Shown here in pieces: positions 243 through 45,600 of a stretch of DNA of 64,000 bases (position 1 is its first letter; the number at the start of each line of letters is the position of its first letter). The notes beneath the pieces were generated by a model, which was not told where the DNA came from, did not search any database, and was given only the letters and a program-made list of their open reading frames with translations. The DNA is taken from the NCBI GenBank assembly GCA_905160935.1, contig CAJHZI010000568.1, forward strand, positions 516,501 through 580,500. Direction: 5' to 3'. This DNA is from Enchytraeus crypticus. Taxonomy: Eukaryota; Annelida; Clitellata; Enchytraeida; Enchytraeidae. The position numbers and the translations under genes are program-made.

Positions 243-3200
243 CTGTTTCACTGCCCCCGGGCTCTTGGCCCCGCCCCCGTTCTGGATCTCCTTGAACTTG
301 GCGAGCAGAGCCTTGGTCGTCCCCTGCTCTGGGAGTTCTGCCACGGTCACGGGCTCATGGGACCTGGGGGCCTGGCCGTCACCCCCTCCTGCTGCCGTCG
401 TGTAGCGTGCCAACATTTCACGAGTGGAGGTGGAGGGGAGGTCGGAGGGACCGCCGTTTAGGTCGTCGCGCCTGTTTGCCACATCGGGTTGACTGGTCGG
501 CTTCTCCCACTTAGAAGGGCTCTTCTGTTTGGCTGCCTGGGGTGTGGACTGCTGACCAATCATACGATTGATTACATTTAATAGCCTGATGCGAACCAGC
601 CAATCACAGCATTTGTGGATATATGAACCAGCCAATCACAACATTTGTGGGTATGTTGAACCAGCCAATCACAGCATTGAATACATTTTGATTCTCACAA
701 CATAGAATCGGTAGCTGAAGAGTTCGTACTAGGGTATGCAGCACAGTTAGGATCTTAGATTAATGATTAATGATTAAGCAGTAATCATTTAACAAGGTAT
801 GTAGGTTATAATAGAACTTAACCATGCATGCGTCACTAACGAAGACTCGTAGAGCAGAGAGAAAGTTCTACAATTAATTGAGCTGTATAGGACCACAGGC
901 ATGCATTACATAGGCACTTAACACACTAGATATTATTGATAAACACATTAACACACACACACGCACACACACATACATACAAAAAACAACAAAAGAAATA
1001 CTCAATAAAGGAGCACACCAGCATAAATACAGCAATAAACATGCAGAAAATACAAATCCACACAAATAATTCAAGCTCAAAATAATGTTAAATAAAAATC
1101 AGCAAGCAGTTGTAAAGTTTAGCGTCTGTTAAACACTAGCAAACTGTAGGAGACTTTCTGACAACAGCCACACTGTCAAAGCTAGATTTGTCTTAACATA
1201 TGCCCCAGAAGCCTCATCAATTGAACGTTGTACAATGACTGTTTTAGAACAACAAGTGCCATATTCTTAATTCATCTATTTTTTCATAAAGGTCATAAAA
1301 TTCAAATGAAGGCAAAAACTTACCCCGGCATTAGGCTGCAAACCCTCAAACGTATCTACAAAGTGTAAGTTAACAATATATTGAATTTTATTTATTTAAT
1401 TTCAATTCAATTCAATGGTACAATAATCGTTCAACAGTAAAAAGCGAATAGCAAAAAGTGCTACCTAAAATCATTACAACAACAACAACAACAATTAGAG
1501 CGATACAGTCAGAAATGACAATATCGAGCACTATTGAGACAAAATCAAGCCTATATATATCACATGAATATATGCACAACAGTACTCTATCTTGTCAACA
1601 CAACCAATTTCAACCAATCATTAAGCATTGCCTAGGCCTCCCCACAATTAACGGAGGATTTATCAGACATTTATATATTAGTTAACTCTGTACAACTGAT
1701 TCAATACAACAAGTAGAGAGATCGTTTATAAATATATATAATATATAATGGCTGGAGCCAGTGGCGATGTCGGTAAGATATTCGACCGCGGATAAGTATG
1801 TGCTGGGTCCAAATTCTGGGCTCGCCCGTCACTGACATCGCTTTCGAGTAAGGAAACTGACGTTAACATTAGCTTTTTAGCTTTTACTTTATATATCACA
1901 GTATAATTTGAATACTTCAATGCTGCTCTCTAAACCTTAGGCACAACAACAAGCACTTCAGTAAGCTACCTGAAATATTAACTGACGCTACTAAGTTACA
2001 CACATCAGTTAGTGAGTTGACATCACTCAAAGCTATGACTATAACTATGACTATAAACTAGAATGGATAAAGATAAGAGCACCTACCACAGCCTGGTGGT
2101 CTAGTCTTCTTCTCCATTCCAAATCCCTCCTCATAGTTACCTACAGTGTTATCATCAAACAGTCAAAATCAACAATCCCGCTTACAGTGTTACCATCTAC
2201 AAGCCCTCCTACAGTGTTACCATCTACAATCCCTCCTACAGTGTTACCATCTACAAGCCATCCTACAGTGTTACCATCTACAATCCCTCCTACAGTGTTA
2301 CCATCTACAAGCCATCCTACAGTGTTACCATCTACAAGCCCGCCTACAGTGTTACCATCTACAAGCCCTCCTACAGTGTTACGATCAAACAAATAATTCA
2401 ACTGTTGATCAATTACGTTCACTGCAGTGTCTAGTAAATTGTTAAACTGGATGATTAATGAGAAGATCAATCAATCAATCAATCAATAAGTAGTCCATAT
2501 CTGAACAGTCGGAATCAATCCATGATGAAACAAATTACTACTCAAACAATCAATCAATACATTAATTATTCAATAAATTACTACTCAATCAATCAATACA
2601 GCTTGAATATTTATAAACTTGGAATGTGCTAGAGCTTACAATATATAACTACCCATCCATTATCCTCCCTTTAATCCCAGTCCAGCTAGGGTCTGGACAT
2701 TAACAAATATCAGAAACTGAAATAATTCAAAACTTACTAAATACACAAGAATCACCAGTGTCACATAACGTTTACATATTATCCATTAGATTCACACTAT
2801 GCCATTTTATTCTTATGTTCTTTAGTTTTATCCCACTGAATCTACAACTAAATAAAATAATCTATAAACAGATAAACTGACTGATTGATCGATCGATTGA
2901 TTGATATAACATTTCTTAAGCAGAATTTTGTTTAATACCTTGACTATCACACTGTAGCTACTAGAGTCTAGAATAAGATTAATATGTATATATATTTAAT
3001 GCACTTCTCAAGGTTCTACGTAGCATAAAGCAACAGACTCTACGTCCCTGACATCATCCTAGTATAAGGAAACGGACGTTAAACCTTTATCATTATTATT
3101 ATTACAGGGGCAGCCAGTGACAGTCAAACCTTTAGTTCTGAACAGCTCGATGAAGTGAGGCTTGCAGTAGAGCTGCTTGTTGCCTCCTGCTGCCGTGTAG

Positions 3201-42640: not shown

Positions 42641-45600
42641 TTATATGGTCAGTCCAAACACACTGACAATGCAGTACATTGTCTTGTTCTCCCATCTAAC
42701 TGTGCAGCTGCCTACACATACAAACACATGTACACACAAATACAAACACACTGACAATGCAGTACATCGTCTTATTCTCCCATCTAACTGTACAGCTACC
42801 TACACATACAACACATACCAACACATGTACACATACATACAACACATACCAACACATGTACAAACACACACAACACATAGCAACACATGTACACACATAT
42901 ACAACACATACCAACACATGTACACACATACAACACATACCAACACATGTACACACACATACCACACATACAGCACATGTACACACACATACAACACATA
43001 TACACACACAACACATACAGCACATGTACACACGCACACAACACATACAACACATACCAACATATGTACACACGCACACAACACATACAGCACATGTACA
43101 CACACATACCAGCACATGTACACACACATACCAGCACATGTACACACACATCCAACACATGTACATAACAAACATACATCACATGTGCACACACATACAA
43201 CACATATCAACGCATGTACACACACACCAACACATGTACACACATAAGAACACATGTACACACATATACATGCATACAAACACACAGAAGCACAGACACC
43301 TACATGCAAATACACAGAAACACAAACACACAGAAGCACATACACTAAAATACAAACACATATAAGCACATACACACAAAAGCACAAAAAACCAACAATA
43401 CAGTACTTTGCTGACAATAAAGCAGTTTGTACGCTCACGTCACATTACCATGAAAAGAAAATAGACTCCAATCACCAGGACTTATTCCATCAATTAATAA
43501 TTATATTTGTTCTAAAGAAGCTTGATCTTCGTACTACAATGGCACTGTTAGCACCTATATCATATTCCCTCTGGGATTTGAACCAGCAGTTCTCTAATGG
43601 CAGGAAACTATCCTACCAACATAGCCATCAAACCAATACAATAATTAAGTTCTAAACGAGTGCTTTAGACCAAACAGCATATATATAAGCATCAGAAAGC
43701 ATTTGAGATTACTGTCGTGTAGTAAACAAATTAAATTTTGAAATAAAGAAAGTAGAATAAAGTTTAGCCACAAATTGCCACATTTCTTTTGCAGATTGGT
43801 CTGCGTGAATTGATCTGTAGTGATGTGTGCTGTGGGGACTTCCCTGACATCATCCCTGTATGAGAAAATGGACGTTAAACCTTTATTATTATTTCTTTTT
43901 CAAATCTACTAGTAACGAGTGACAAACCGTCAGTGGTGTTGTCCCAGTAGCAGCTGCTGGCAGTGTGCAGTCCAGCGCCGTTCTTCTGCATTATCACACA
44001 TGTCACTGCACCAACAACACAAAACAAATCATACATAAAGTTTGCAGAAAAAACTGCAGTATTTCCGAAGGTAATAAGTTTGTCATTGCCATCTAATTGC
44101 CTGGTATCATCAATTTAAGGAATAACATTTTTAAACTAAATTTTATACGTAAATATAATAACCATCCATAGATTTATTACAAATTAGCTGAATTATTCAC
44201 ATTTGTCGAACAGCGCATTTCTAGAAAATCAATAAAATCACCTATTATAAGATAAAGAGACATAAAGAGACACTTTATACCTGTAAGAATGTGTGGGAGT
44301 ATGTATGTATTTGAGCATAGAAGTGTACATGTGTGTAGGTTTGTATGCGGGACTCTTACGTGTATGTGGTATGTTGAGTGTTTAGTTTTTCTTATATTCT
44401 TTTTTTGAAGCCAATCAACTTATCAAGGTTTTATTTTTTCCTTTACAGTCTCTATGTATTGCGGTATGAAATTACGACACGGATGGTGTTACAAACCTTT
44501 ACTACTTCCAGAACCAGTATGGTTAAGTTAAGTAAAACCACAGATATATACTGAGGCAGCAACTCTTTAACTAACATTGAAGCCTTACTAACAGCCTTTT
44601 GTGAGTAGTTACTTCAAATAAATGAATATATTTTCAGAAAGCCAGAAACTGGTTAAAGTAAATTTAACGAAACCTCTGAGTGGTCTATCCCACCAGTGAA
44701 TGAAAGAATATATAGTAGGTATTTAATATACCATAATTAGTTTTTCTTTTATACAGTTTCTGTGCCTCTCCAATGTTAACCAGATCCAAGCAACTAGTAT
44801 TCCTCATAAGAAGAAGGAGAAGTTACCGATATATTTGAAAGGCTTGGAGAGTTTGGCGAGCTGATTGAGGCACTGCTCGACTACGTTAGACGTCCACATG
44901 TTCACCTTACTGTGCTGATACGCATTGCCTCCGATAGCACTCTCTATCGACTGTAATAATACAATATTACAGCTCTCTATCCACTTAAATAATACAATAC
45001 AGCTCTCTATCCACTGAAATAATACAATACAGCTCTCTATCCACTGAAATAATACAATACAGCTCTCTATCCACTGAAATAATACAATACAGCTCTGTAT
45101 CGACTGAAATAATACAATACAGCTCTCTATCTACTGAAATAATACAATACAGCTCTCTATCCACTGAAATAATACAATACAGCTCTCTATCCACTGAAAT
45201 AATACAATACAGCTCTCTATCCACTGAAATAATACAATACAGCTCTCTATCCACTGAAATAATACAATACAGCTCTGTATCGACTGAAATAATACAATAC
45301 AGCTCTCTATCTACTGAAATAATACAATACAGCTCTCTATCCACTGAAATAATACAATACAGCTCTCTATCGACTGAAACAACACAATAACACTCTCTAT
45401 CGACTGAAATAATACAATACAGCTCTCTATCGACTGAAATAATACAATACAGTAGCATTCTCTATTGAATGAAATAGCAAAGTAACTTAACTTTATGCTC
45501 AATAGAACAAAAAATATGCCTTCAAATAACTTCAATAACTCAAATAACTTTAGTTTCTATAAAGACATTGATGAAAAATTTGTTACATTTATTGGAAATT

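Follow-up and report, generated by a model that had tools for sequence, protein, structure and literature searches.

Mirage-like minisatellites at exon borders of an annelid genome, at about the frequency of the intronic background in a sample of genes

The window analysed here, a stretch of 64,000 nucleotides from the annelid Enchytraeus crypticus, sits on a 635-kb contig of a 524-Mb assembly and holds four modelled genes. Three of them lie on the minus strand and have GT-AG introns in our exon models, namely a LIM gene that we take to be EPLIN-like, the glycogen synthase gene (GYS) and a gene (DYN) that presumably encodes a Tctex-type dynein light chain. The fourth, on the plus strand, is assumed to be PCGF/Psc-like; it has one GC-AG intron, at 50275, and its 5-kb last exon contains coding tandem repeats of 24-nt and 12/24-nt units (56473-56690 and 58220-58309). 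The identity of GYS rests on database comparison: its 15 exons give a spliced product of 694 aa that aligns with annelid homologues and, among the 120 of 7947 matches listed, shares 87-88% identity with unnamed metagenome proteins, the best named matches being the annelids Platynereis (77%) and Ridgeia (75%). Copies of a tRNA-like SINE, with a GGTTCAAATCC-type box recognised by eye, are dispersed at 1742-1850, 8340-8430, 35580-35690 and elsewhere, and a second repeat family starts near AACAACAATTAGAGTGCTAC.

A first-pass annotation of the letters had reported that about ten exon borders in the LIM, GYS and DYN genes are followed by repeats whose unit is that very border. Our strict junction-copy test searched for ungapped copies, no more than 1.5 kb away in the direction of the intron, that scored 18 or more and had five or more net matches to either side of the junction; since intron flank is required, copies of an exon end with almost no flank escape it, as at LIM 3343. 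Ten of the 57 modelled borders of the window pass, comprising eight of the 29 acceptors (GYS exons 5, 11, 12, 13, 14 and 15, DYN exons 3 and 5) and two of the 28 donors (GYS exons 7 and 10), which bears out the earlier statement that both border types are affected, acceptors the more often (Table 1). The description of the unit as the border itself thus stands for GYS exons 5, 7, 10 and 12-15 and for DYN exons 3 and 5 but falls for both LIM borders, and the test adds one border to the original list, the weak GYS exon 11 acceptor. TRF recovers the named arrays in GYS, DYN and LIM. Because the copies at passing borders include intron flank, copying took place at the DNA level, as had been claimed, and retrocopying is ruled out wherever that flank is carried.

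Table 1. Repeats at exon borders of the window (positions counted from its first letter; strand, that of the gene)
Feature	Position	Strand	Description
GYS exon 5 acceptor array, upstream	35118..35428	-	exon 35025-35169; unit 69, exonic part about 50 nt, intronic part 19 nt
GYS exon 7 donor region, single diverged copy	32888..32965	-	exon 33061-33181; gapped alignment
GYS exon 10 donor array	31041..31382	-	exon 31370-31483; unit 32; GT kept in 10/10 copies
GYS exon 11 acceptor, weak copies	29890..29975	-	junction copies 36 and 66 nt upstream; score 19
GYS exon 12 acceptor array	28852..29189	-	exon 28709-28866; units 71/34, exonic part about 17 nt
GYS exon 13 acceptor copy	27994..28073	-	exon 27831-27932; 50 exon nt + 38 intron nt
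GYS exon 14 acceptor array	26730..27209	-	exon 26684-26755; unit 67, exonic part about 26 nt
GYS exon 15 acceptor array	25925..26052	-	exon start 25941; unit 41
DYN exon 3 acceptor array	44940..45452	-	exon 44827-44950; unit 30 x 17
DYN exon 5 acceptor duplicate	42655..42816	-	unit 88; acceptor + 57 nt coding; then CA-rich array
LIM acceptor 3343 array	3346..3827	-	(AAC)n + exon nt about 19-47; fails strict test
LIM acceptor 2140 array, upstream	2168..2386	-	unit 27; fails strict test

The arrays differ in what they have kept of the border. The copy at the exon 7 donor of GYS comprises 32 nt of exon and 40 nt of intron sequence in a gapped alignment and has lost the GT; the ungapped pass of this border came at offset 229 and is probably a match to a GATT repeat, the true copy needing gaps. 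At GYS exon 13 another, shorter copy is visible by eye at about 28080-28115. Upstream of DYN exon 3 lie 16 junction copies, all with AG (16/16) and all at multiples of three nucleotides from the native site, so that using any of them would add residues in steps of ten (only the consensus unit was inspected for stops, by eye). The LIM arrays, to which TRF assigns units of 27 and 49, are of another make: the copy at acceptor 3343 is partial, the first 18 or so exon nt not being copied as such, and the array at 2140 holds, by eye, only the intron end, the AG and a few exon nt, its top gapped match being the flank matching itself.

The wider sample comprises 292 borders from 14 genes and four tandem guanylate cyclase paralogs; beyond the window it covers eight CCT chaperonin loci, from as many further contigs, and, on the window's contig, the guanylate cyclase paralogs, a plastin gene and an SRPK kinase gene. 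We assume the names CCT subunit, plastin and SRPK for these loci, the assignment of the CCT loci resting on the PF00118 profile. The guanylate cyclases, of receptor type, form a tandem group on contig C475 (366501-485000, L028-L013), where at least three of the four have kinase-like and cyclase exons. The CCT sample excludes the PF00118 places on C373, C259, C400 and C372 and leaves out the first match of L033, the first acceptor and last donor of L031, the last donor of L032 and the donors of the third and last exons of L036. Also left out were, in the guanylate cyclases, the A1 acceptors, the A3, A13 and A20 donors, A13b, sites without AG/GT and the duplicate matches A16 at 62571 and A19 at 92446 (the latter an exon-end copy with almost no flank), and further the plastin donors of exons 8, 9 and last and the SRPK donors of exons 5 and last. 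As controls for the expected counts we took intronic points outside microsatellites, matched for locus and direction and kept 100 nt or more away from modelled exons. Some of these controls may land in border arrays or unmodelled exons, and all P values ignore the kinship of borders within genes and paralogs.

Measured in this way, 40 of the 292 borders are spanned by a copy against 39.5 expected, the nearest copy lying 27-115 nt away at 33 of the 40 affected borders. Within the window no gene exceeds its own intronic background (share of intronic points against borders: GYS 0.28 vs 8/28, DYN 0.26 vs 2/8, LIM 0.20 vs 0/6, PCGF-like 0.06 vs 0/15). The repeats themselves exceed chance; their number at borders does not. 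The anchoring of repeats at splice junctions, which the first-pass annotation had proposed, is not supported by these counts; on the sample, rather than genome-wide, borders behave as that annotation had said they would if its reading were wrong. The nearby microsatellites that had been proposed as seeds fare no better, since a simple-repeat run of at least 14 nt occurs within the last 150 nt of the intron at nine of 29 copied and 27 of 128 uncopied acceptors (P 0.33). Minisatellites called by TRF (period of at least 7, microsatellites excluded) occupy 10.9% of 264 kb of the window's contig.

The two border types do not share this background equally. Pooled acceptors are spanned in 29 of 157 cases against 21.7 expected (P 0.059) and donors in 11 of 135 against 17.8 (P 0.044), the difference between acceptors and donors reaching a Fisher P of 0.011; if the guanylate cyclase paralogs are set aside, the figures become 25/95 against 13.9 (P 0.0016) and 6/86 against 14.1 (P 0.0071). 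With growing distance from the acceptor on the intron side, copied positions make up 29/157 at the junction, 38/148 at 10 nt, 42/146 at 50 nt, 34/149 at 100 nt and 34/153 at 200 nt, and then 16/140 at 600 nt and 13/130 at 800 nt; the corresponding series for donors reads 11/135 at the junction, 11/131 at 10 nt, 16/128 at 50 nt, 16/130 at 100 nt, 14/129 at 200 nt and 20/114 at both 600 and 800 nt. Into the exon behind the acceptor, the share drops from 26/157 at 10 nt to 4/156 at 45 nt. TRF coverage runs at 21-22% between 30 and 200 nt before acceptors, 10-11% after donors and 10-13% in mid-intron (300-800 nt), and acceptors differ from donors over the first 150 nt with P 0.0016 (label permutation). 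These profiles show that the junction is not the centre of the arrays, which instead populate the 3' ends of introns in part of the genes and overrun the acceptor by tens of bases.

How far this polarity extends depends on the gene. Over the first 100 nt the window has a coverage of 0.30 at acceptors and 0.11 at donors, the CCT genes 0.33 and 0.10, plastin and SRPK together 0.16 and 0.08, and the guanylate cyclases 0.08 and 0.09. The CCT loci alone show 16 copied acceptors of 44 against 5.1 expected (nominal P 9e-6), with two donors of 41 against 5.4; of the loci that have five or more acceptors, L032 (6/8) and L029 (4/7) show the highest copied shares. A general acceptor excess, as it had appeared in the first CCT loci, was not repeated by the guanylate cyclases (acceptors 4/62, donors 5/49), plastin (0/12 and 1/9) or SRPK (1/10 and 1/8), and none of the eight PCGF-like acceptors is copied. 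A uniform background is nevertheless too simple a description, given the CCT excess and the acceptor excess that emerges without the guanylate cyclase paralogs; that high expression lies behind the behaviour of the CCT genes is a guess. The guanylate cyclase paralogs differ in the presence of repeats (one assembly), a repeat being common to them at the A4 acceptor (3/4) and the A15 donor (3/3), each of which may be one old event, and not shared at others, a pattern expected for turnover.

Most copies retain the look of a splice site. AG is kept in 108 of 117 acceptor copies, a count that scores GYS exon 15 one base off and enters its one copy as without AG, and GT in 38 of 44 donor copies. On a simple matrix, 85 of the 117 acceptor copies come within 2 bits of the native site and 34 of the 44 donor copies are as strong, so that 24 of the 29 affected acceptors have at least one copy as strong as the native site. 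The authentic border stays intact and the surplus copies are intronic, the modelled junctions giving a colinear GYS; in a protein comparison, five related GYS proteins showed no insertion at the affected GYS borders, which is in keeping with use of the native GYS sites. Introns with several equally strong acceptors offer a natural test of how the spliceosome chooses its site.

Taken together, the reading that we consider probable is that these are mirage-type minisatellites, a by-product of frequent intronic tandem duplication rather than of any attraction of splice sites. Short tandem duplications would arise at high density by slippage, repair or unequal exchange, and splice junctions would neither attract nor block them, borders being included at roughly the rate of intronic points in our sample. 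In part of the genes sampled, and unevenly between them, duplications would be denser in the last 250 nt or so of introns, so that acceptors would be affected more than donors. One authentic border would persist at each site, and the surplus intronic copies may turn over as other minisatellites do, by gain, loss and homogenisation of units. Purifying selection, suggested by the decay into exons and by the donor deficit, probably removes duplications deep in exons and some of those at donors; in short exons, 30 of 2179 interior points pass the test. Against this reading stand the excess of copied CCT acceptors, the acceptor excess seen without the guanylate cyclase paralogs, and the 109 of 1000 exon-interior points that pass once the 5-kb PCGF-like exon, which has coding repeats of its own, is included.

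It is tempting, though tentative, to go one step further and regard the last 250 nt or so of introns as a hot zone of duplication, covered about twice as much as the remainder of the intron, where a process linked to transcription or splicing would be at work, most strongly in some gene classes such as CCT; if so, acceptors are continually duplicated. A rival reading ties the events to the 3' splice site itself, where breaks caused by transcription pausing, R-loops or nicking would be repaired as tandem duplications, chiefly in some gene classes. The CCT acceptors, with donors below expectation, and the roughly twofold TRF coverage near acceptors over donors (P 0.0016) speak for it, but there is no peak at the junction, the pooled acceptor excess is only 29/157 against 21.7 (P 0.059), and the guanylate cyclase, plastin, SRPK and PCGF-like acceptors (4/62, 0/12, 1/10 and 0/8) do not follow, so that we hold this reading to be unlikely. 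Selection alone, acting on an even spread of duplications by purging those at donors and in exons and leaving acceptors apparently enriched, would fit the donor deficit (11/135 against 17.8, P 0.044), the depleted exon interiors and the finding that coverage of the last 200-300 intron nt is an outlier in some sets only; yet donor purging cannot account for a coverage of 21-22% before acceptors that exceeds the 10-13% of mid-intron, which makes selection alone distinctly doubtful.

The strength of the copied acceptors, 24 of 29 affected ones having a copy to match the native site and 85 of 117 copies lying within 2 bits of it, might suggest that upstream copies are kept by selection because they act as enhancers, decoys or spare acceptors. 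Overall, however, borders show no enrichment, donors likewise keep their GT (38/44 copies) and young tandem copies hold motifs without selection, so that a retained function is highly improbable. An assembly artefact has next to nothing to recommend it, as the copies differ by substitutions and indels and the same kind is seen on several of the nine contigs examined.

The repeats invite comparison with known systems. In the model of Rogers, introns are reportedly gained through tandem duplication of sequence that bears splice sites, and Zhuo et al. are said to have described human introns made of tandem arrays. Our case is like that model in that tandem duplication copies splice-site sequence inside a gene, and unlike it in that no new intron or exon is seen in the modelled genes. 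A potato RdRp gene is described as a case of intron gain by tandem duplication (PMC4974935). Internal tandem repeats at exon-intron borders are also described from human segmental duplications, and these too are minisatellites with units of about 30 bp at exon-intron borders; unlike here, the repeats vary in copy number from one recent paralog to another, and transcripts there give evidence of altered splicing (PMC2812944). Nearer to our host, the metallothionein genes of earthworms contain large intronic minisatellite arrays, and one clone has exon-4 duplications that are absent from the transcript; the likeness is that of an annelid with intronic minisatellites, a border-spanning unit not being reported in the available part of that paper (PMC12783039). 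A search of open-licence papers yielded no annelid report of border-spanning repeats.

The closest counterpart comes from amphioxus, where the globin genes BflGb6 and BflGb9 have border-spanning minisatellites called mirages after the work on Adh3; 5' and 3' borders are affected, splicing is undisturbed, lengths are unstable, and a route to intron gain has been proposed (PMC3087553). A later paper adds a mirage in PGBD5 and cites troponin C (PMC3902484). The remark of the first-pass annotation that it knew no named system of this kind is thus not supported. The repeats of E. crypticus are like mirages in that the unit reaches across the border and takes in both intron flank and exon end (40/292 borders, 10/57 in the window, the LIM cases not among them), that both border types are affected (29/157 acceptors and 11/135 donors), that copies often keep AG or GT with the authentic border intact, and that units measure tens of nucleotides, the amphioxus units being 10-72 nt in Adh3 and about 150-160 nt in the globins. 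They are unlike mirages in their host, an annelid and not a cephalochordate, whose GYS, among the 120 of 7947 matches listed, is closer to Platynereis and Ridgeia than to Branchiostoma (62-68% identity), and in that frequency has here been measured against the intronic background, and in their acceptor bias and 3' polarity. The name mirage was coined in cephalochordates and is descriptive rather than mechanistic; by analogy, the annelid repeats would work like mirages. The kind is known and the mechanism likely ordinary. As far as searched, three things are new, namely that the host is an annelid, the rate as measured here and a 3' polarity that is uneven between genes; this polarity and the CCT excess are the parts worth pursuing. 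Introns with several equally strong acceptors are also a natural test of whether such duplications feed intron or exon gain, and the comparison suggests that mirages, rather than being peculiar to lancelets, are the mark that abundant tandem duplication puts on the exon borders of a genome, here on about one border in seven in the sample.
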